A stretch of 42,720 bases of DNA from the NCBI GenBank assembly GCA_002690915.1, contig NZGF01000047.1, positions 1-42,720 on the forward strand, read 5' to 3'. Of this stretch, positions 19,144-30,827 are shown in pieces (position 1 is the first letter of the stretch; each line of letters begins with the position of its first letter). The stretch is from Crocinitomicaceae bacterium (GTDB lineage Bacteria; Bacteroidota; Bacteroidia; Flavobacteriales_D; Sanyastnellaceae). A program made the translations under genes and the position numbers. The notes beneath the pieces are model-generated. The model ran no database searches, was not told where the DNA came from, and was given only the letters and a program-made list of their open reading frames with translations.

Positions 19144-20421
19144 ATGAGATATGAACGCTCCTCCTCACTCTTTATCAATGCTCAAAACAGCATCCCAGGT
19201 GGGGTGAATTCACCTGTAAGGGCATTCAAGTCAGTTGGTGGACATCCTATTTTTATGCGCAGTGCCAAGGGTGCTTACCTCATCGACGCCGATGGAAACA
19301 CGTACGTCGATTACATCAATTCGTGGGGACCACAAATCCTCGGTCACGCCCATGCTCCGGTAATTGAGGCAATAAAAAAGACAGCTGAGAAGGGCACTTC
19401 GTTCGGGACGCCAACAGAATTGGAAACCCAAATTGCCGAGCTCGTATGCTCCATGGTGCCTTATGTAGACCAAATTCGAATGGTGAATTCAGGAACAGAG
19501 GCATGCATGAGCGCCATTCGTTTAGCACGAGGATATACGGGCAAAGAAAAAATAATCAAGTTCGCCGGTTGCTATCACGGCCACTCTGATTCTTTCCTAA
19601 TTCAAGCAGGCAGTGGAGCCGTCACTTTCGGAACACCAAGTTCTCCCGGTGTGACCCAAGGCACTGCCAAAGACACACTGCTGGCCAGATACAACGACCT
19701 CGCCTCTACCTCATCAATGCTCGAAGCAAATGAAGGGGAAGTGGCGGCGATAATCGTAGAGCCTGTGGCTGGGAATATGGGATGCATCCCCCCGCAACCG
19801 GGCTTTCTAAAAGGACTTCGGACGCTCGCCACAAAGCACAATGTTTTGCTTGTATTCGACGAAGTAATGACCGGTTTCCGGTTGTCTGAAGGTGGGGCCT
19901 CAACATTGTATGGCATCACCCCAGACTTGGTATGCTTCGGAAAAGTGATCGGGGGAGGTTTGCCGGTTGGTGCGTTCGCCGGACCACGAGAAATCATGTC
20001 TCATCTTGCTCCGTCGGGACCCGTTTACCAGGCAGGGACATTGTCTGGAAACCCCTTAGCAATGTCTGCAGGTCTTGCCATGTTGTCGGAATTGCACGAA
20101 AAACCAAAGATCTACGACCAGCTCGCGGTGCTTGGCCGTGTCCTGGCTCAAGACATCTCCACTGCACTCAATGAGCGGTCTGTTGTGCACCAGATCAACC
20201 AAGTCGGATCCATGCTTTCGGTTCACTTGTGTGAAGGACCTGTAAAGGACTTCGATTCAGCCAAGGCGGGAGACAATGAGCGCTTCAAGGCATTGTTTCA
20301 CCATATGCTTTCCCAAGGTATTTACTTGCCACCATCGGCCTATGAATCCTGGTTCCTCTGTGCTTGTCTTGATGACTCTACCCACAACAGAACCGTTGAA
20401 GCCTTCCGCTCTTTCCGATGA
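19144..20421 (+). CDS. hemL: Glutamate-1-semialdehyde 2,1-aminomutase
   Basis: 425 residues. This PLP enzyme converts glutamate-1-semialdehyde into 5-aminolevulinate, the step between HemA and HemB. Diagnostic motifs: [18 protein letters not shown] at the N-terminus, [39 protein letters not shown] with the PLP-ring Asp, and the Schiff-base Lys267 in [15 protein letters not shown]. The C-terminus contains the expected [13 protein letters not shown]. It is transcribed away from the hemA operon, so the early pathway is split over two transcripts sharing one control region. It is followed about 50 bp later by a subtilase gene on the same strand. Confidence 0.96.
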
Positions 20422-20470
20422 TTTCGTGTGCGTGAGATCTTTGACCAATAATGGCGATTACCTTCGTGTC

Positions 20471-22672
20471 ATGCTTAGAAGGAGTCTCTTATTGCTTGTC
20501 ACCGCTCTCAATCTCAACACCAGCGCTGCCCAAACCATGGCCCAGGTTGACCGCCAGGCGCTTCACGAATTGGAAGCATTGGTGCAAGCCCATCCGGATG
20601 TCAAAGACCTTTTAAGCGTTAGCAACGCCTACCCGGTTGCCGAGGTCGATGGTCAGGCCACGATTGGGTTTATCGGTCTACTGTCGGAGGGTATTTCTGA
20701 ATCATCGTGGTTGGCATGGTGTGACGCTAATCCCGATGTAGCTGCTGGTGCTGTGCGAGCGAACATTGCTTCATTTCGCATTCAAGCCCATGCGTTGGAC
20801 GTGCTTGCTTTTCTTCCCATGGATTTGGTGGAATTGGCTTCACGGGCGGTCCCTGACGTCAACAAGGTTCGCTATGGAACACGGGTCGATAGCGTTCATG
20901 CTGGGTTCAATCTGCCACAACCATACCACGGCGAAGAGGTGCTCATCGGGGTGTTGGATTGGGGCTTTGACTACACCCATCCGATGTTCTACGACACCGC
21001 CTTAACATCGACCCGCATCCGGGCTGTTTGGGACCAGTACCGCCAAGCAGGTCCTGCTCCGGAAGCATTCGGCTACGGCACAGCAGTAGAGACAGCAACG
21101 GAATTCGTACAGTTGGGCAGCGATACCTCCAATGTTTACGGGTATTCCACCCACGGCACCCACGTTGCTGGCATCGCGGGAGGCAGCGGCGCGGGGATTG
21201 GGCTGAAAGGCATGGCGCCCGCCGCTGAATTCCTCTTTGCCACCCTGATGGTCGACGAAGCGGCTGCACTGGATGCGTTCGCATGGATGCAGGACATTGC
21301 TGAAGCCGATGGGAAACGATTGGTCATCAACAACAGTTGGGGCCTTCCGCAATGGGGCACGCCGGACGGGAGTGCATTGAGCAGTCAGTTCATCGATGCT
21401 CTATCTGCGGAGGGCGTAGTTTTTGTAAGCTCGAACGGCAACAACGGCGATGTGGATTTTCATTTGGATCACACGTTCGATGCCCTTGGTGATACGGTTC
21501 GCTCCCGGATCAAGTTCTTTCCGCTGTCCGCCAACCCCAATGCCTGGGGGCAAAACGTGACGTTGTGGGGCGAAACCGGAGAATCTTTTGAAATGGGGTT
21601 CATTTGCACGATTGGACTGTCTACCCTCGTGGGAGAAAGCCCCCTGTTCAATACCGCAGATGGCCCCATGCTCTTAGACACCACCTTGGTCATCAACAAC
21701 GACACGCTCTTGTATGATGTAGTGATGGAACCTTCCCATCCGGCGAACGGCCGTCCTTTTCTGCAGATGCGCATTCACAAGGGCGGCGCAAACGTCGCTG
21801 TCTCCATGAGGTTGACCGCAGAAAGCGGACGTGTCCATGCATGGAACAACACGCACCTCACCAACGATGTCGGCAACTGGGGCCAGGATTTCCAGGCCTT
21901 CCAGTCTGGTTGGCTTGCGGGCAACCCCTCGTACGGCGTTCAACAACCCGCGTGCAGCCACAGCGTCATTGCTGTTGGAGCATACAGCTCTGAATTCCTC
22001 AGCCCCACGGGCACAGAGGTTGGAGGAACAGTGGCCAATTTCTCGAGCTACGGCCCCACCCTTGATGAACGCCTGAAGCCGAACGTATCTGCACCGGGTG
22101 TGAGCGTGGAGTCCTCCTTAAGTTCCTTCCGGGACGGTGCGTACAGCATCACGAGCACCACTGAATTCGACGGCATCTCGTATGATTTCGCTCGGCTCTC
22201 TGGCACCAGCATGAGCAGTCCGGTCACCACAGGTGTGGTGGCCTTGATGCTGGAAGCCAATCCTGCGCTCACCTCTTCAGACGTGCGGTCCATTTTGGAA
22301 TCAACCGCGCGTCAAGACGACAACACGGGCGAGCTGCCTGCGACGGGTGACTTCGTCTGGGGCCATGGGAAAGTAACGGCGACGGCAGCGGTTTTGGCGG
22401 CGCTCAGTTGGGATTCCAGCCTCGGCACGCCAATGCATCACGGTGTTTCCGTCTCCGTCTATCCGAATCCAGTGGGTGCGGAGTTCCAGCTCGAAGGCAT
22501 CGAATGGAAAAGGTTTGCGTGGGACGTTTACGATGCGAACGGACAGTGGCAGAAATCCGGAGTAACCAGTGATTCCGAAAGCATCGACGCATCGCACTTG
22601 GCTGCGGGGATATACATCTTGCGCATCTATACGAACGGCGCCCCTCAATCCGTGCGCTTTTTGAAACAATGA
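20471..22672 (+). CDS. Secreted S8 subtilisin-like peptidase with T9SS tail
   Basis: 733 residues from ATG at 20471, where a clear signal peptide begins (MLRRSLLLLVTALNLNTSAAQ); the longer frame runs back into hemL and is rejected. The catalytic triad is visible: Asp163 in GVLDWGFDYTHP, His228 in YSTHGTHVAGIAGG, Ser580 in SGTSMSSPVTTGV. A large beta-rich insertion (about 370-510) separates the His and Ser parts. The C-terminus is a T9SS domain (VYPNPVGAEFQLEG, then AAGIYILRIY). Probable extracellular protein degradation. It starts 49 bp after hemL but is unlikely to be functionally linked to it. Confidence 0.9.
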   Translation: MLRRSLLLLVTALNLNTSAAQTMAQVDRQALHELEALVQAHPDVKDLLSVSNAYPVAEVDGQATIGFIGLLSEGISESSWLAWCDANPDVAAGAVRANIASFRIQAHALDVLAFLPMDLVELASRAVPDVNKVRYGTRVDSVHAGFNLPQPYHGEEVLIGVLDWGFDYTHPMFYDTALTSTRIRAVWDQYRQAGPAPEAFGYGTAVETATEFVQLGSDTSNVYGYSTHGTHVAGIAGGSGAGIGLKGMAPAAEFLFATLMVDEAAALDAFAWMQDIAEADGKRLVINNSWGLPQWGTPDGSALSSQFIDALSAEGVVFVSSNGNNGDVDFHLDHTFDALGDTVRSRIKFFPLSANPNAWGQNVTLWGETGESFEMGFICTIGLSTLVGESPLFNTADGPMLLDTTLVINNDTLLYDVVMEPSHPANGRPFLQMRIHKGGANVAVSMRLTAESGRVHAWNNTHLTNDVGNWGQDFQAFQSGWLAGNPSYGVQQPACSHSVIAVGAYSSEFLSPTGTEVGGTVANFSSYGPTLDERLKPNVSAPGVSVESSLSSFRDGAYSITSTTEFDGISYDFARLSGTSMSSPVTTGVVALMLEANPALTSSDVRSILESTARQDDNTGELPATGDFVWGHGKVTATAAVLAALSWDSSLGTPMHHGVSVSVYPNPVGAEFQLEGIEWKRFAWDVYDANGQWQKSGVTSDSESIDASHLAAGIYILRIYTNGAPQSVRFLKQ

Positions 22673-23758: not shown

Positions 23759-24973
23759 TCAGCGAACCACCCACCGCACGCTTCGCGTGACGTCGCCCTG
23801 CGCTAGCTGGATGATGTACAGGCCCGGTGCAAGGTCGTGTTGGATGGAAAAGATGGCATCCGCAGACCGGCGGTTGATGACCTGGCGCTGCACTTCGTTT
23901 CCGATCATGTCGTATACGCCCAGCGCAACCGGTCCTTGGGACGGCCCTTTCCACTCCACTTGAACCGTGGCTCCTGTTGAAGGGTTGGGATAAACCCGAG
24001 GCATTTCAATGAGCGGCTCGGGGGCACCAATGAGCGAAACGTTGCCCGGGTCTCCTGCAAACACCTGAATCGAAAATCCGTCTTGCAATCCATTGACCCA
24101 GCCCAGCGAATCCACACTCAACGTCGTACAGAAGGTCTCCGAACAACCGGCCTCCTCGTTGCTCACCGTCAAGCACAGAACATACGGACCGTCGGTCTCG
24201 TACTGCCAAGACGGGAAGGGGTCCTCACTGCTTCCTTCGTCACCAAAGTCCCAGAGGTAATCGTTCTCCTCATTGTAGTCCAGCAAAAACACAAACAACT
24301 CGTTCGCAATCAAAACCGAGTCCTCCCCAAAGGCTTGCATGACGATGAACTGCGCGTTGCAATCCCCTTCTTCTTCATCCGTGCCCTGCCACCACGACCA
24401 GTCTGCCGTCTCAAGCCATTCGGCCAAATCATCGCACGCCTCCTGATCACCTTCCTGGCATGCGATCAGGCTTTCAAGCAACCCGCAATACCACCACGAA
24501 TCGTTGGTAGTCGCGTCTCCGCACAAACTATCGAGGTAATTAGCAAGCGCATCTTCATCCAGATCTTCCCATGGGAAATCGTCCTCCTCTTCATCCGTTT
24601 CACAAGGAACCATGTCCACGTATGCATTGTACCAATAACTATTGACCTGGTTGATCGACGTGTCGAGTTGAGCGATGGCCGTCACCGTAGCACCCGGCAC
24701 ATTGCAATCGGAAATGGTCACTGTTACAACAGGTTCTACAGGGTAATTTGGGCCCCCAAAGGGCAAAACAACGAAGCCCGAATCACCAACAAACCAAGTG
24801 GCATACACCCCTTCCCCCCAGACTTCCACCTCGGTGGCTTCAACATCCACGAATAACGTGTCGTCCTCTGCAGCCCCTTCAACGGTGTAGTGCAACATGA
24901 AGATGTGTTCTGAATCTTGCGCTGACACCGCAACGGCAAACGTCAGGAAGAGGAGGGTGAGGATGTTTTTCAT
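23759..24973 (-). CDS. Exported PKD-domain protein with acidic Trp-rich middle and T9SS tail
   Basis: 404 residues from ATG at 24973. Signal peptide KNILTLLFLTFAVAVSAQ. The first beta-rich part (about 20-130) is followed by a strikingly acidic, Trp/Cys-containing helical segment (DEEEDDFPWEDLDEDALANY, then WWYCGLLESLIACQEGDQEA). A PKD-like domain spans about 220-305 (YLWDFGDEGSSEDPFPSWQY, YVLCLTVSNEEAGCSETFC). The C-terminus is a T9SS domain (VYPNPSTGATVQVEW, then APGLYIIQLAQG). It is the last gene of the four-gene minus-strand array, 60 bp after its neighbour. A GTGAATTTCAC palindrome sits just before its start. Function unknown; probably a surface or secreted protein. Confidence 0.85.
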   Translation of the reverse strand: MKNILTLLFLTFAVAVSAQDSEHIFMLHYTVEGAAEDDTLFVDVEATEVEVWGEGVYATWFVGDSGFVVLPFGGPNYPVEPVVTVTISDCNVPGATVTAIAQLDTSINQVNSYWYNAYVDMVPCETDEEEDDFPWEDLDEDALANYLDSLCGDATTNDSWWYCGLLESLIACQEGDQEACDDLAEWLETADWSWWQGTDEEEGDCNAQFIVMQAFGEDSVLIANELFVFLLDYNEENDYLWDFGDEGSSEDPFPSWQYETDGPYVLCLTVSNEEAGCSETFCTTLSVDSLGWVNGLQDGFSIQVFAGDPGNVSLIGAPEPLIEMPRVYPNPSTGATVQVEWKGPSQGPVALGVYDMIGNEVQRQVINRRSADAIFSIQHDLAPGLYIIQLAQGDVTRSVRWVVR

Positions 24974-24985
24974 GGGTGGGATTTG

Positions 24986-24996
24986 GTGAATTTCAC
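24986..24996. promoter_or_regulatory. GTGAA-T-TTCAC palindrome
   Basis: A perfect 11-bp palindrome 12 bp upstream of the PKD-protein start. It uses the same half-sites (GTGAA and TTCAC) as the TTCAC-N8-GTGAA dyads found before the other genes of this array, but in inverted order and close together. It may be a weak or unrelated site. Confidence 0.3.
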
Positions 24997-25033
24997 ACAC
25001 AAAACTGGGTTAACTACGAATGGGTTGCACGAA

Positions 25034-25957
25034 TCACGGACATGAAGTGCCAAATGCACTCAACAGGAGGAGAACATCCGTGACGGCCACCACGTTGTCA
25101 CCGTCGAGGTCACCTACGCAAACCGAACACGGACCCCAGGTGCACGAACCATCATCCACCAAGGCATTTTCATCGTAATTCTCAGCGTCCGAATAAGTAC
25201 AACCCGCTGCCCATGTGTCCGGCCACGCGCAAGCTTCCGGCGGGAACGTGCACGAACCGTCTTCGAATGCAGCACCCGGATCGTAGTTGCAGGCTTGCGG
25301 GTACGTGCAGCCCCCGTATTCCACCACTACGCACGACCCGTCTTCCCATGATGTGACTCCCCCGAGGTAGGTGGCCTCGCAATCGTTTGAATAGGTCACC
25401 CCGTCGCATCCACATACCGGCGCAAAAATCTCAGGACAAAAAACCGCTGGGTCAATCTGATCCTCATCCACGCAGGATGCGGGTTCGGAAACATCCACAC
25501 CTGAGCCGCCTCCTAACGTCCAAGAACCGTATTCAGTTCCGTTGGGATAGGTATAGATTTCCCAGGTGAGGTAATCTTCAACGAGGCAAGCCCATGGGTA
25601 TTCACTGCCGTTGTGAAAGACCGAGTCATTCGTGTGGAGCACGGAAACGAACAGGGTGTCCGTTAGTGGCAGGTCGAAACTGAAGCTCACTGTGCTCGCA
25701 TCAACCAGTGTAGTATCGTGCAGCACGTTGCCCTCGGAATCGGTGAATTCCCACTCAAGGACATTCGTCTCGGGAGGCCAGGTCACATACGGCCCGGGAT
25801 GATAAATGCTGATGACACCCTCCTGTGAGCACACGTTGCACACGAGACCATGAAGTTCGCAATCGACAGACGATGTGACCTGTGAAGAAGCTGAACCAAG
25901 GATGCAGCAAAAGGCTAACAGGACTATGTAACGGAAGGTAGGGGTTAGCTTTTTCAT
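25034..25957 (-). CDS. Exported paralog A: shared N-domain, Kazal-like domain, Cys repeats, dockerin-like end
   Basis: 307 residues from ATG at 25957, at the signal peptide (YIVLLAFCCILGSASSQ); an upstream GTG start is less likely. Residues about 22-155 are clearly homologous to the protein at 27.8-28.4 kb (shared SQE, YHPG.Y.TWP, EGNV.H.TLVD, TDTLFVSVL.TNDS, EDYLTWE, GSWTLGG). Next is a Kazal-type motif (CPEIFAPVCGCDGVTYSNDC, continuing to SC), then two GCT..NY..DGSC repeats and a single dockerin-like loop (DLDGDNVVAVTD) ending SAFGTSCP. There is no T9SS tail. The Kazal motif may inhibit serine proteases or serve as a disulfide module. It lies directly downstream of the TPR-LuxR gene (67-bp gap, carrying a TTCAC-N8-GTGAA dyad). 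Confidence 0.85.
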   Translation of the reverse strand: MKKLTPTFRYIVLLAFCCILGSASSQVTSSVDCELHGLVCNVCSQEGVISIYHPGPYVTWPPETNVLEWEFTDSEGNVLHDTTLVDASTVSFSFDLPLTDTLFVSVLHTNDSVFHNGSEYPWACLVEDYLTWEIYTYPNGTEYGSWTLGGGSGVDVSEPASCVDEDQIDPAVFCPEIFAPVCGCDGVTYSNDCEATYLGGVTSWEDGSCVVVEYGGCTYPQACNYDPGAAFEDGSCTFPPEACAWPDTWAAGCTYSDAENYDENALVDDGSCTWGPCSVCVGDLDGDNVVAVTDVLLLLSAFGTSCP

Positions 25958-25990
25958 GGTTCGAAGGTGCACTAAATTGAAGATGATTGG

Positions 25991-26014
25991 TTCACGCACA
26001 GGGGTGAAAAAGCC
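25991..26014. promoter_or_regulatory. Shared dyad element, copy A (TTCAC-N8-GTGAA)
   Basis: TTCACGCACAGGGGTGAA followed by AAAGCC, 33 bp upstream of paralog A and just after the stop codon of the TPR-LuxR gene. Twenty consecutive bases are identical to copy C at 28471. The TTCAC/GTGAA arms form a dyad with an 8-bp spacer, the form expected for a dimeric DNA-binding protein. Function as an operator is inference. Confidence 0.6.
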
Positions 26015-26024
26015 TAGCTGCCCG

Positions 26025-27683
26025 TCAGTCCGATGTTTGACTCGGCTCCAAAGTAAGTTTGGTCACGGCGTGCACCAAGGCAATTTTCTTGTACCTCGTT
26101 TCCCCAATGTTGAAGTATCCGTACATCCTGCGAAGGGAAGAACCGATGCCATCGATGCTCAAGAAGGCTCGATCGGCGATGGCTTGGTTCGTCATCGTCG
26201 GTTCTTCCATCAACAGGTTCAAGACCTTCCAATCCGTTTCATTCAACGGCCGGTCAATGGCCGCCTCAATGGCCAATCGTTGATCTTCCAATGATGGCAT
26301 GGAGACCGCCATGCTTCTCATTTGGGACGCTTTCAACCCCTCTATTTCAGTCAGAAGCGCTGCCTTGCGCTGTTCGTGCCTAGCCTTGTTTCGAATCGCA
26401 TGAACCACCACCCCCGCAACTACGAGTACAAAAACCAGGATAAGCAGGATCACGGTTTTGAGTTGTTGGATGTAGAGCCTGTCCACCTCTTCTTGGCCTT
26501 TCATACGCAGCACATTCAATCGGTGCTCGACATCCTTTTCGTACGCCGTTCGGATGACGACGTACTTGTTTCGTGCGTACTCGACACTGTCGTGAAACGC
26601 GAGAAAAGACTCGTGCATCTCAAGAGCCCGCGGCGCGTTGCCCAATTGCTTATTAGCCAGGTAAAGCAGCTCATGCAAATCGCGCAACAACTCGTGATTT
26701 TCTATGTCCGAATGTCGAGCCAAGATGCCTTCGGCCATAGCCAATGAACCGCGCACATCATCAGCCAGGCGCAGGCGCGCCAATTGCACTTGGCATTCTG
26801 CCGCTAACAACTCAACCCCCATCTGTTCGAACAGCGACAAACTTCGGGTCGAGTGGAATTTCGCATCGTCCAGCCGTCCCTTCTCTTCGTAAAGAGCAGC
26901 GATGTTCTGGTGGATACACGCGAGGTGGTAATCGGAATTGGCTTGTTCTGCAAGCGGCAACGCTTGGTAATACAATTCCGTCGCGTGGTTAAGGTTTCCC
27001 AGCTTGTATTCGCAGTACCCAAGATTCATGTACAGAAGCCCTCGAAACCGTGCATTCTCTGGGATCCAATCCAATTCGGAAAGCACCTCTTCGTATTGGG
27101 TTTTCCCCAACTCGAACATTTCAATCAAGACGAATACGTTCCCCAGAGCCATGCGGACATTGCGCTGACCTCGTGCATTACCCGCCGCTGTGTGCAATTC
27201 TAGCGCCGTCGTGAAGGATTCCATGGCACGCGCATAATCCGCCTGATTGGCATAGACATTCCCCCGGTTTGCAGCTAAGGACCCCATGCGCATATAATCG
27301 TCAAACGGCTGGATGACCTCCTCCGCGCGCTGGTACGCTTTCAGTGCCTGCTCATTGAGCCCTTTGTAATTGAGCAGTCCTCCCTTTCTTAACCATGCTT
27401 CATACAGGAGCAGCGGACGGTTGTGTTCCAGCGCTTTGACCGCCAGCTGTTCCAATTCAACCAAAATGGTGTCAGGGTATCGCTGGTGGTATCCTGCGTA
27501 GAGCTTATCGAATGCCGTGAATCGCACGTCGATGCTCGCTGACTCATCATGCCATACCCGAAGCAGACTGTCCAATTGCGGGGTGTCTGAGGCTTCAGCT
27601 GGCCAAGCAAGCGACAAAAAAGCGATGGCTACGAGCACCGAATGGATGGGCAAAACCCTATGTGCTGTCTTGTGATGATGCAT
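26025..27683 (-). CDS. TPR sensor-regulator: exported TPR domain, one TM helix, LuxR-type HTH
   Basis: 552 residues from ATG at 27683, at a signal-peptide-like segment (LPIHSVLVAIAFLSLAWPAEA). Residues about 60-400 are tetratricopeptide repeats (LLLYEAWLRKGGLLNYKG, LYMNLGYCEYKLGNLNHATE and others). A helical linker follows, then one transmembrane helix (VILLILVFVLVVAGVVV, about 428-445), a short basic coiled segment, and a C-terminal LuxR/GerE-type helix-turn-helix (about 485-545: LNETDWKVLNLL, NQAIADRAFLSIDGIGSSLRRMY). The topology implies an outside TPR sensor joined to an inside DNA-binding domain, as in other Bacteroidota one-component TPR-LuxR proteins. It is flanked by two paralogous exported proteins that share an upstream dyad with it, so it is the natural candidate regulator of this array. 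Confidence 0.85.
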   Translation of the reverse strand: MHHHKTAHRVLPIHSVLVAIAFLSLAWPAEASDTPQLDSLLRVWHDESASIDVRFTAFDKLYAGYHQRYPDTILVELEQLAVKALEHNRPLLLYEAWLRKGGLLNYKGLNEQALKAYQRAEEVIQPFDDYMRMGSLAANRGNVYANQADYARAMESFTTALELHTAAGNARGQRNVRMALGNVFVLIEMFELGKTQYEEVLSELDWIPENARFRGLLYMNLGYCEYKLGNLNHATELYYQALPLAEQANSDYHLACIHQNIAALYEEKGRLDDAKFHSTRSLSLFEQMGVELLAAECQVQLARLRLADDVRGSLAMAEGILARHSDIENHELLRDLHELLYLANKQLGNAPRALEMHESFLAFHDSVEYARNKYVVIRTAYEKDVEHRLNVLRMKGQEEVDRLYIQQLKTVILLILVFVLVVAGVVVHAIRNKARHEQRKAALLTEIEGLKASQMRSMAVSMPSLEDQRLAIEAAIDRPLNETDWKVLNLLMEEPTMTNQAIADRAFLSIDGIGSSLRRMYGYFNIGETRYKKIALVHAVTKLTLEPSQTSD

Positions 27684-27737
27684 GGCGCTGTGGCTATGGT
27701 CGAACAATGAAATTCGAAACCACCCCCCTTTTTTCAA

Positions 27738-27760
27738 TTTACGGCTGGGGGTGAAAAGCC
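27738..27760. promoter_or_regulatory. Shared dyad element, copy B
   Basis: TTTACGGCTGGGGGTGAA followed by AAGCC; 18 of 23 positions match copy C. The TTTAC/GTGAA arms keep the 8-bp spacing with one mismatch. It lies 54 bp upstream of the TPR-LuxR start, so the regulator gene may be autoregulated. Confidence 0.55.
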
Positions 27761-27772
27761 TTCGGCACGTCG

Positions 27773-28399
27773 TCAATATCGGACCTCATACCGCTTCTCC
27801 ACTGTACCGTCGTCGTAGATAAAAAACAGCAATTGATTCGGCTCGGGGTTCACTTCCCGGCCTGTGATGTCTACGATGGAAACCAGCTGCCGTGTCGTTG
27901 GGCCGAATCCCAAAGCAACGGTTCCAATGCTCGATGGCTCGCCGGCATAGGTTCCGACCGCACCACCAAGGGTCCAAGACCCGATAAAGGAGCCAGGGAT
28001 GATTTCCGTCTCTTCCCAAGTCAAGTAGTCTTCAATGCGGCACGACACAGGATTTCCATCATAGTAAATGGATGAATCATTGGTGAGGAGTACGGATACA
28101 AACAAGGTATCCGTGATGGGTACGTTGTGACCGAAGGCTACAAAGTTGTTGTCGACCAAGGTCTCTTCGTGCACCACATTGCCCTCCTCATCGGTAAACA
28201 GCCACTCCATAACATTTTCAGTGTTCGGCCAAGTGAGGTAGCCGCCCGGGTGATACAGATGCAACGCGGTTTCTTGGGATCCAACATTGACCACCAAGGC
28301 CATGGAGTCGCACCCCACTGAGGTGATCTGGGCTTGCAGTTGTCCAGCGGTCCCGAGCATCAGGAGCAAGGCGAAGGTGAGTAGGGGTGCATTTTTCAT
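27773..28399 (-). CDS. Exported paralog B with shared N-domain and short C-terminal sorting-like motif
   Basis: 208 residues. Signal peptide APLLTFALLLMLGTAGQLQAQ. Residues about 24-150 are homologous to paralog A: SQETALHLYHPGGYLTWP, EGNVVHEETLVD, ITDTLFVSVLLTNDS, IEDYLTWEE, GSWTLGGAVG. The C-terminus differs: after a Ser/Gly linker it ends VSIVDITGREVNPEPNQLLF and then IYDDGTVEKRYEVRY, a DxxGRE...DDGTxEK ending seen in Bacteroidota T9SS-type cargo as a short variant. It is the first gene of the minus-strand array; the regulator follows after 89 bp. Function unknown. The paired paralogs on either side of a TPR-LuxR protein suggest they may act as its ligand, partner or output. Confidence 0.82.
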   Translation of the reverse strand: MKNAPLLTFALLLMLGTAGQLQAQITSVGCDSMALVVNVGSQETALHLYHPGGYLTWPNTENVMEWLFTDEEGNVVHEETLVDNNFVAFGHNVPITDTLFVSVLLTNDSSIYYDGNPVSCRIEDYLTWEETEIIPGSFIGSWTLGGAVGTYAGEPSSIGTVALGFGPTTRQLVSIVDITGREVNPEPNQLLFFIYDDGTVEKRYEVRY

Positions 28400-28470
28400 A
28401 GAAGAAGGTCTTTGGATTTAGAGGGTTCACTTTTCTGCCATCGAATTACGGCTTTTGTAACGGGAAAAAA

Positions 28471-28493
28471 TTCACGCACAGGGGTGAAAAGCC
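28471..28493. promoter_or_regulatory. Shared dyad element, copy C
   Basis: TTCACGCACAGGGGTGAA followed by AAGCC, 71 bp upstream of paralog B on the minus strand and about 130 bp upstream of the FAS1 gene on the plus strand. It is identical to copy A over 20 bases. Because it is a dyad in a divergent intergenic region, it could control either or both directions. Confidence 0.6.
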
Positions 28494-28622: not shown

Positions 28623-30827
28623 ATGAAACACCTCACCCTCCTTTTCATTTTCGCCGGCTTGAACGCGGCTTTTGCACAGGCTCAATGCGAAGCAGACGCT
28701 ACCGTCTACCTGACCGACTTCATTTTCACACCGAGCGATTTCACGGTTTCCGTGGGACAAACCGTCGCCTTCGTAAACGCGGAAGGCACGCACAACGTCG
28801 ACGGCACTGCCGAGAGCAATCCCGTCGCCTTCTTTCTTGAGGAAACCGAAGGCAACATCGACGGCGTCTGCATGGGCACGGTCACTTTCGACGTGCCGGG
28901 TGTCTATACGTTTACTTCTTCCATTGGGGTGCAGCCAGAACTCGGCATGACCGGGACGATCGTGGTGGATGCCGAGACGCTGTCGGATGTGATGGCTGAT
29001 TTCACTGGAGGTGGCGAATTGGAAAACCTTGCCGCTTGGCAGTCCTGCTGGGCGTTCACCACATATTACAGCGCCAATTACATCAACGGACAGTCGGGGA
29101 ACACCGGCTGGGTGGGAGGTGTTGACCTCGCCGGCAACGAAGAATACACCGTTTTCGTTCCGACCGATGCAGCTGTTAATGACTTAATGGAACTGATGAA
29201 CCTGAGCCAATTCGACATGCTCGCATTCTACGATATGATTCCGGCATTGGCTTACCACATTGTCCCCGGCATCTACATGGCGAGTGACCTGGAAAATGGT
29301 ATGCTGTTGCCCACGGCAGAAGGCCAATCAGTCTCCATTTCCATCGGAGATGCCGGCGCGATGGTGGATGACGCGAACATCATTTATGCAGACATCACAG
29401 CTTTTAATGGTGTGATTCACGTCATCGATGACATCCTTGCTCCGGCGGGCTACCCCGGCGCCACGACATGGGATGTCATCGTCCAAAGCCCAGACCACAC
29501 CATCCTCGAGCAAGCACTTATGGCCGAAGGATTGGATGAGGCACTGCGCGGCCAACCCATCTTAAACGACAACGAACCGGCCGAAGGTCCTTTCACGGTC
29601 TTCGCCCCAACAGACGATGCCTTTTTTGCCTTAGCAGAGGCCAACGGATTTGAGAGCGTCCAAGCCCTACTCGGATCCCAATTCATCGATGACATCCTGG
29701 ATGCGCACCTCGTTGAAGCGGTCTACGAAAGCGGAGACCTATACAACGGGCAGAATTTACCGTCGTACAACAATGCGGGAATCATTAACATCACCTTTGA
29801 TGAGGTGGGAATCGAGGCCAACACGGCCCCCATCATCCAGGCCGACATGCTGGCATACAACGGTGTGGTGCATTCTTTGGGCGAAGTGATGCCATTTGAC
29901 TTCCCCGATCCAGAAGGCACCTGCGGCTCATGGACCATCACCATGACATGCAGCAACGGCGGCCCCGACGGTTGGGAAGGTTCTTCGCTTCATGTGTTTG
30001 CAGATGGGACTCAAATGGCTGCCGAAACCATGATGACCGTCGGCAGCGAGTCGTTTTCCATCCCGGTGGACGAGGGAAGTCGACTTGACGTCATTTACAA
30101 CAACGCAGGTTGGGGCGCATACCACGGCTACAGCGTCACCGACCAAAACGGCACCATCGTTTTCAGCAGCAGTGGGACACCTCTCAGTGTCTACGGCCTC
30201 AATCCTTGTGAAGAGGAACCCAGCTGTGGCCTCATCGAAATCACCTTCACCGACAACTCATACGACGGCTGGTATGGAGGCAACATGGGTGTCTTCTCCG
30301 AATCGGGCCTTGAAGCCAACATCTTCTTCAACCCCGATTTTGACGGAGACGGGTACGCGGATTACCAAGGATTCTCCACCCGAACCGTCATGGTTACTGT
30401 TGACGAAGGAGAAGTGGACTTCCTCGTCAGCTCACCTGTGGTGTACCCCACGCAATGCGGCTACACGGTAAAGAATCCTGAAGGCGACATCATCATTGAT
30501 GAAACGAACACCAACGAAGCTCCACCAAGCACCCTGAATTACGTGATTTGCGAAAGCACTGCATCGAGTGCCACAGAAGCGGAGTCGACCGATCGATCCA
30601 TCTCCATCTTCCCCAATCCAGTCTTCACCACCGCCCAGCTCCAAGGCTTCCGTGCTGACGACGCATGGGAAGTAGACATCATGAACCTGCAGGGGCAAGT
30701 GGTTCATCAGCAAAGTGGACTGGGCAATGGCATCCTGGATGTTTCCAACATACCTGCCGGTATTTACGCGGTGCAACTGAAGCAGAGCGACAGCGTTGTC
30801 AAAGTTTTGCGATTCCTCAAGGACTAG
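28623..30827 (+). CDS. Exported cupredoxin-like / FAS1 adhesin with T9SS tail
   Basis: 734 residues. Signal peptide LTLLFIFAGLNAAFAQ. Residues about 25-120 form a plastocyanin-like fold (FTPSDFTVSVGQTVAFVNAEGTHNV..., then GVYTFTSSIGVQPELGMTGTIVV). The usual Cys-x-x-His copper ligands near YTF are replaced (TSSIGV); only the Met and the upstream His remain, so copper binding is probably lost. Two fasciclin (FAS1) domains follow: about 120-280 (YTVFVPTDAAVNDL, then ITAFNGVIHVIDDIL) and about 285-425 (FTVFAPTDDAFFAL, then MLAYNGVVHSLGEVM). Two DGW/DGWYGGN beta domains come next, then a T9SS domain (IFPNPVFTTAQL, PAGIYAVQLKQS). Probably a surface adhesion protein. Divergent from the paralog B array. 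Confidence 0.9.
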   Translation: MKHLTLLFIFAGLNAAFAQAQCEADATVYLTDFIFTPSDFTVSVGQTVAFVNAEGTHNVDGTAESNPVAFFLEETEGNIDGVCMGTVTFDVPGVYTFTSSIGVQPELGMTGTIVVDAETLSDVMADFTGGGELENLAAWQSCWAFTTYYSANYINGQSGNTGWVGGVDLAGNEEYTVFVPTDAAVNDLMELMNLSQFDMLAFYDMIPALAYHIVPGIYMASDLENGMLLPTAEGQSVSISIGDAGAMVDDANIIYADITAFNGVIHVIDDILAPAGYPGATTWDVIVQSPDHTILEQALMAEGLDEALRGQPILNDNEPAEGPFTVFAPTDDAFFALAEANGFESVQALLGSQFIDDILDAHLVEAVYESGDLYNGQNLPSYNNAGIINITFDEVGIEANTAPIIQADMLAYNGVVHSLGEVMPFDFPDPEGTCGSWTITMTCSNGGPDGWEGSSLHVFADGTQMAAETMMTVGSESFSIPVDEGSRLDVIYNNAGWGAYHGYSVTDQNGTIVFSSSGTPLSVYGLNPCEEEPSCGLIEITFTDNSYDGWYGGNMGVFSESGLEANIFFNPDFDGDGYADYQGFSTRTVMVTVDEGEVDFLVSSPVVYPTQCGYTVKNPEGDIIIDETNTNEAPPSTLNYVICESTASSATEAESTDRSISIFPNPVFTTAQLQGFRADDAWEVDIMNLQGQVVHQQSGLGNGILDVSNIPAGIYAVQLKQSDSVVKVLRFLKD

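Follow-up and report, generated by a model that had tools for sequence, protein, structure and literature searches.

Single-chain membrane regulators such as ToxR and CadC carry an N-terminal OmpR-type winged helix-turn-helix (HTH) and sensor domains other than tetratricopeptide repeats (TPR), and the TPR regulators of the RRNPP group are cytoplasmic, have an N-terminal HTH where one is present and have a short peptide as partner. To our knowledge, few transcription factors of Bacteroidota have both a known operator and identified cargo. The nearest system in function that we found is FimS of Porphyromonas gingivalis, a periplasmic TPR sensor kinase that controls fimbriae and whose signal is reported as unknown (PMC11053733). 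Here we describe a locus on a 42,720-nucleotide stretch of DNA from a Crocinitomicaceae bacterium (GenBank assembly GCA_002690915.1, contig NZGF01000047.1, positions 1 to 42,720; herein referred to as the window, which is contig C48 of an 84-contig, 2.39 Mb genome that is 84.9% complete). The locus is an array encoding an exported protein (A), a regulator that combines TPR, one transmembrane (TM) helix and a C-terminal HTH, a second exported protein (B) that shares an N-terminal domain (X) with A, and a PKD-domain protein with a type IX secretion system (T9SS) type A sorting domain.

The likeness of this array to FimS is that of a periplasmic TPR sensor governing a surface adhesin, whereas in FimS the sensor is a histidine kinase and the response regulator (FimR) a protein of its own, and the array regulator joins sensor and HTH in one protein. 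Over the whole protein, the regulator weakly matches the FimS model NF053520 of NCBIfam (E 1.3e-10; it scores 40 bits, the cut-off being 600), and no HisKA or HATPase kinase domain was found in it by a Pfam scan at E up to 1. ToxR and CadC likewise place a DNA-binding domain, one TM helix and a periplasmic sensor in a single polypeptide, but the array regulator reverses their order, with a C-terminal HTH and a TPR sensor. The RRNPP proteins (NprR, structures 5dbk and 4gpk; RapF) resemble it in having a TPR array tied to expression control, as both sequence-profile and fold matches indicate, and differ in that the array regulator has a signal peptide, a TM segment and a C-terminal HTH. The genes beside it encode larger exported proteins, which may or may not be processed into short peptides. 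On the cargo side, the PKD protein carries the tail of T9SS type A cargo (TIGR04183), for which A and B show no match (TIGR04183/PF18962) at E up to 0.1, and FN3/Ig-like adhesion modules are also among the closest known kinds. The initial annotation, made from the DNA letters alone, knew no described system with this architecture, and among open-licence papers we likewise found neither a matching system nor an earlier description of a unit of regulator, operator and cargo.

We hypothesize that the array is a one-component surface-protein switch, in which the membrane regulator binds a palindrome and turns on the adjacent exported cargo, and we consider this the probable reading. The regulator, its operator and a cargo that can be exchanged appear to make up one unit; the linkage, the conservation and position of the site, its co-occurrence with the regulator and the differing cargo behind one type of operator are all observed. 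What is new here is the palindrome, TTCAC-N8-GTGAA, which precedes X genes and also unrelated exported cargo located behind the same regulator, and which in most cases is followed by a flavobacterial −7 box exactly 21 bp downstream. It was first spotted by eye before A, before the window's regulator and before the regulator of the closest relative (G015; G and L numbers denote genomes and loci), and was then tested in other loci. In the window the site before A (28471..28488, minus strand; TTCACCCCTGTGCGTGAA) has perfect palindrome arms, the site before B (25991..26008, minus strand) is the identical 18-mer, and the site before the regulator (27738..27755, minus strand; TTCACCCCCAGCCGTAAA) is degenerate, with one mismatch and a weak −7 box.

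The fetched loci (694 kb) hold 28 perfect sites, 16 of which, by reading, stand no more than about 115 bp ahead of an X reading frame or just within it; two more precede regulators, five precede other exported genes and five lie elsewhere. When a fixed region around each start was scored, with at most one mismatch allowed, sites accompanied 17 of 21 X genes linked to a regulator, 9 of 39 unlinked X genes with room upstream and 13 of 337 other genes, nine of these 13 being, by reading, exported proteins of the same loci. With the discovery loci removed, 17 of 18 linked loci have a site of at most one mismatch before an X gene, several of the 18 being near-copies (L051/L052/L053; L113/L117/L120); the exception, L042, has a two-mismatch site 33 bp before the likely ATG. 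X genes that lie at a distance from the regulator in regulator-positive genomes (G018, G012, G002, G259) also bear the site, which suggests control in trans. Counted alone, with up to one mismatch, the site occurs 154 times in 737 kb against 64.5 in shuffles.

Among 30 hand-chosen promoters (omitting the degenerate site before the window's regulator, the near-copies L052, L053 X, L117 and L120, L153, and the sites of L040, L043, L129 and L147), 28 have their best or tied-best match to a TAnnTTTG-like box at a start exactly 21 bp beyond the site, and 16 match 5 or 6 of 6 at this offset, where every other offset reaches at most two. In Flavobacterium psychrophilum, TAnnTTTG serves the primary sigma factor as its −7 box and spans −12 to −5 (PMC9723704). 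Box scores average 4.4 of 6 at +21 and 1.66 across all offsets, and the 737 kb contain 41 instances, counted by strand, of a site (at most one mismatch) with a box (at least 4 of 6) at +21, against a mean of 5.0 and a maximum of 9 in eight shuffles. Given the position of this box and the −7 to −33 spacing of flavobacterial promoters, the right arm of the palindrome lies where the −33 element is expected, and the regulator therefore most likely activates these promoters. The same overlap would also suit a repressor that sits on the −33 region and blocks the promoters until a signal releases it; yet these promoters have the fixed GTGAA arm where a TTTG-like −33 box would be, a sign that they may need an activator, and we regard repression as a doubtful, though not negligible, alternative. 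A search for the TTTG −33 box in X promoters that lack the site gave no clear outcome for either sign of control. In 11 of 28 listed site-bearing promoters, that of B included, the ATG of the exported protein follows the −7 box by 4–5 nt, and with the box at −12 to −5 leaderless transcripts are predicted. A second upstream palindrome at 27–28 bp was seen in a few loci and is too weak to claim.

Site and box also track the presence of the regulator. Together (with the box scored at 3 or more) they precede 22 of the 29 X genes found in genomes that have the regulator, versus 4 of 33 in genomes that do not (p 3.9e-7; four X genes were set aside for short upstream sequence, and A and B of the window were entered by hand), and the difference persists without the window and G015 (19/25 vs 4/33, p 1.4e-6). 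Counted per genome it is 18/22 versus 4/30 (p 7.9e-7), the gene and genome tests both treating rows as independent; phylogenetically independent pairs agree, at 7.6 to 0.1 (median p 0.016, range 0.004–0.125) and, with the test reversed, at 8.3 to 0.0 (median p 0.008). When regulator-negative status was examined again with an HTH profile, 34 genomes gave three matches, all of them in genomes already known to hold the regulator.

Several observations weigh against the proposed switch. The window itself holds five sites of at most one mismatch where 1.92 are expected, and 4 of 100 shuffles reach five, a modest count, so that the case leans on where the sites lie and on what other genomes show. 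The −7 boxes of A (28442..28449, minus strand; GTAATTCG; 21 bp after its site, a poor 3 of 6) and of B (25962..25969, minus strand; CACCTTCG; 21 bp after its site, 4 nt before the ATG, 4 of 6) are weak. Regulator genes mostly have no site of their own (two of the 24 with room upstream have one, and that of the window has a mismatch), and none was found near the regulator in L069, L070 and L151 or in the fragment locus L154. The seven X genes that lack site plus box in regulator-positive genomes comprise two that come second after another X gene (L039, L135), two with a perfect site and no box at +21 (L051, L053), the two-mismatch case of L042, and L138 and L147, which are without site plus box. 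Conversely, four X genes bear site plus box in genomes where no regulator was detected; three of these genomes are 73% (G005), 64% (G021) and 85% (G171) complete, but G152 is 96% complete in six contigs, and its X gene (L126) has a perfect operator. These four genes, together with the mostly site-less regulator genes, would fit a palindrome owned by another transcription factor, or a general class of surface-protein promoter, with the TPR-HTH protein a co-inherited neighbor. Such ownership accords poorly with the co-occurrence seen per gene, per genome and in independent pairs, with the site lying directly behind the regulator gene in loci of differing cargo, and with the own genome, where only the array's two of six perfect sites have the box; we judge it quite unlikely. 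The other four perfect sites of this genome lack a box (at least 4 of 6) at +21, and the regulon here may hence be the array locus alone.

Linkage between X and the regulator was studied by collecting the neighborhoods of both and scoring their open reading frames (ORFs) with profiles built in this analysis. A conserved neighborhood, set beforehand as a check, is present: the X gene adjoins the regulator or lies one gene off in 20 of 28 HTH-bearing loci (27 fetched loci and the window, some of them broken or cut by contig ends), and regulator–X pairs are spread over four families belonging to a single order. Most often the regulator comes first and X follows it on the same strand; in the window, A stands ahead of the regulator as well, L130 has regulator and X convergent, and L051 and L053 have a further exported gene between the two. 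The placement of the TPR gene between two paralogs, as first noted, describes the window but is not a fixed order, the closest relative G015 having TPR-B-A. Whether X occurs mostly without such regulators has a mixed answer. Among 66 X genes (A and B, and 64 ORFs from the fetched loci with E < 1e-10), 23 are linked, 33 are unlinked and 10, with less than 1.4 kb of contig upstream, cannot be assigned, so that by strict count X more often lacks an adjacent regulator. Linkage clusters on the X tree (13 changes against a shuffled mean of 19.0, with 0 of 500 shuffles as low), and a 20-row X clade, mostly with the motif IYHSG, has no linked member (17 unlinked, three unassignable). Lying outside the 66 are short X matches in G292, on G021 contig 182 and at the start of G012 contig 91, and a match at E 3e-6 in L132.

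The regulator has one match in its own genome, where no further copy was found, and a regulator search matched 11 of 60 genomes, each with a single match. One regulator search scored three candidates per genome, and many of the TPR proteins it listed (mostly about 600–850 aa) match the TPR part alone; the loci counted are those where the HTH was found. A further match over the HTH region, in G185 (684-aa frame), is also outside the count. Two loci cut by the end of a contig (L155, L156) hold N-terminal pieces of the regulator; they make G116 and G063 regulator-positive and stand outside the 28 loci. Two genomes of the same genus (L069, L070) hold a close homologue of the regulator with no X gene or operator nearby, and in another family a small Kazal-like ORF with a lipoprotein-like start (L154:4305-4628) lies beside a regulator fragment, echoing the Kazal domain of B.

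The cargo differs between loci. Exported proteins without X adjoin the regulator and carry the site in L149, L150, L152 and L153; the +21 geometry is kept for the unrelated cargo of L149, L150 and L152 and for the Kazal gene of L041, and the best site of L153 has no −7 box at +21. By eye, the C-termini of X proteins include T9SS-like tails, a Kazal domain followed by DGSC repeats and a dockerin-like end, and a further domain of EGRWLWS type. These observations bear on the signal loop proposed in the initial annotation, in which the exported proteins or peptides from them feed the TPR sensor; the array would bind its own cargo in the periplasm and match transcription to secretion. Such feedback would sit well with the linkage in 20 of 28 loci, with the structures nearest to the TPR model, many of them solved with peptide or polypeptide partners, and with its conserved groove candidates (see below). 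As a general rule it fails, since non-X cargo stands behind the same operator; furthermore, TPR parts only 35% identical accompany X domains that are 83% identical, no part common to all cargo was seen except the signal peptide, and B has no T9SS tail match. We consider it unlikely. In a broader version, to which we give little credence, the periplasmic TPR array would hold the unfolded export form of any cargo behind the operator and transcription would follow export state; if true, any surface protein moved behind the palindrome would become secretion-coupled, making the locus a plug-in slot exchanged between genera.

The regulator gene (26025..27683, minus strand) encodes 552 aa from the ATG at 27683, which is a likelier start than the TTG of the longest ORF (27776-26025, 583 aa), and comprises a signal peptide, TPR array, TM segment, coiled coil and C-terminal HTH (26049..26243, minus strand). 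The TPR repeats, the single TM segment (residues 411-430) and the C-terminal HTH of the initial annotation were all recovered, whereas its label of LuxR-type is not the call of Pfam: GerE matches 2 of 16 HTH domains (best E 0.032) and PF00196 is not among the 25 families listed of the 33 that match 22 whole proteins at E 0.01, while HTH_24 and HTH_AsnC-type match all 16 HTH domains at E up to 1. An OmpR-type HTH family was not among the matches of whole regulators or of HTH domains. In the HTH model, DSSP assigns helices at 482-493, 499-506, 510-523 and 532-545, with no strands and no wing, which we take to be a GerE-like layout, and the recognition helix is nearly invariant among the 16 aligned homologues. 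The signal peptide and the positive charges after the TM segment point to a periplasmic TPR array and a cytoplasmic HTH, and helix 350-458 of the model runs unbroken through the TM segment; sequence and model together fit a membrane one-component layout of periplasmic sensor, one TM and cytoplasmic DNA-binding domain in one chain.

The TPR model is closest to LGN/Pins, with Rap and NprR also among the fold matches, and many of the nearest TPR structures were solved with peptide or polypeptide partners. Among 22 rows N139 is invariant and N220 nearly so, both presumably groove positions by TPR numbering. The Rap and NprR matches, and the adjoining gene for an exported protein, could point to RRNPP-like signaling transferred to the periplasm, with a short peptide cut from A or B as pheromone. 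Judging by the layout of the regulator and the fold of X, we think this very improbable: RRNPP sensors are cytoplasmic with an N-terminal HTH and the HTH here is C-terminal behind a TM segment, and X, unlike a short pro-peptide, folds into a domain of some 140 residues in which two Cys are invariant.

X itself has no Pfam or NCBIfam match, its best match among PDB sequences has E 0.32, and it is modeled as an FN3-like beta-sandwich. Within the family, 31 of 114 genomes contain it, as do 55 of 399 taken from the order; a sample of 395 from across the phylum has it once, in the own genome only, where no X domain beyond A and B was found (a third match covers the tail only). The N-terminal domain said to be common to A and B is real, with 156 aligned positions at 51% identity (E 1e-46, far beyond chance); the claim that the two differ only in their C-termini is not, the shared parts being 51% identical and placed in separate groups of the X tree. 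A recent tandem duplication giving A and B was considered and rejected: both fall in one 25-row clade, but a supported 20-row group holds B and leaves A out, and A groups with A of G015. B's group includes X domains of other genera. The X domain of B is 83% identical to that of G114, from another genus, where the TPR parts are only 35% identical, and against the close relative G015 the values are 68% for X of B and 84% for TPR; the former pattern would fit exchange of X modules between genera.

A (27773..28399, minus strand; 208 aa) consists of a signal peptide, the X domain (about 27917-28339) and a C-terminal tail ending IYDDGTVEKRYEVRY. Other exported proteins of these bacteria also carry this tail, which is about 40 residues long (27776-27907) and has an end like IYDDGTVEKR; in A no Pfam or NCBIfam model matches it, and it is a candidate compact sorting signal. 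Because many rows match the tail alone, a whole-protein search with A (27 of 60 genomes matched) was not used to count X; in a related-locus search, six of seven loci were matches limited to residues 129-203 of A. In L040, L047, L051 and L053, X is repeatedly accompanied by a protein of about 460-480 aa that has WSQTYGG repeats and this type of tail; its gene has an operator of its own in L051 and L053, and its frame is broken in L053.

The four ORFs of the array lie where the initial annotation had placed them, all on the minus strand. B (25034..25957, minus strand; likely ATG at 25957, with the longest ORF of 321 aa, 25999-25034, opening at GTG 25999) has a signal peptide, the X domain, a Kazal domain upheld by a Pfam/NCBIfam scan, and two Cys-rich DGSC repeats and a dockerin-like end that were recognized by eye. 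The fourth gene (23759..24973, minus strand; likely ATG at 24973, with the longest ORF of 413 aa, 25000-23759, opening at GTG 25000) encodes the PKD protein, whose PKD and T9SS tail are confirmed by Pfam/NCBIfam matches (TIGR04183/PF18962 at E 2.3e-9); of 70 T9SS type A (TIGR04183) matches in the own genome, 66 are above the cut-off. No operator was found before the PKD gene itself, which is thus probably co-transcribed with B. The array is flanked by T9SS proteins, namely a fasciclin/plastocyanin-like protein (28623-30827) and an S8 subtilase (20276-22672), and subtilase homologues occur on several X-bearing contigs (L040, L043, L050, L054, L055).

In the switch that we favor, the regulator would be held in the inner membrane with its TPR array in the periplasm and its C-terminal HTH in the cytoplasm, one TM helix being continuous with a long coiled-coil helix. 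The TPR array would sense a signal, most likely an extended polypeptide or peptide, which may alter a dimer such that a pair of HTH domains binds TTCAC-N8-GTGAA directly, where a −33 element would be expected, with the −7 box following at 21 bp. The genes under control would encode exported, probably surface-displayed proteins: in the window A and B, with the PKD protein presumably transcribed behind B, and in other genomes a different cargo, while regulator and operator stay.

The outcome is a regulator family, an 18-bp operator of fixed promoter geometry and a set of candidate targets. For FimS-type TPR sensors, whose signal is reported as unknown, it may offer a simpler, one-protein arrangement with a defined output. 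In marine relatives of Flavobacterium, the sensor appears to turn on whichever surface-protein gene sits beside it; if the unit holds, the operator would find surface proteins, including those of unannotated families such as X, and would allow one to ask which of them bacteria trade.

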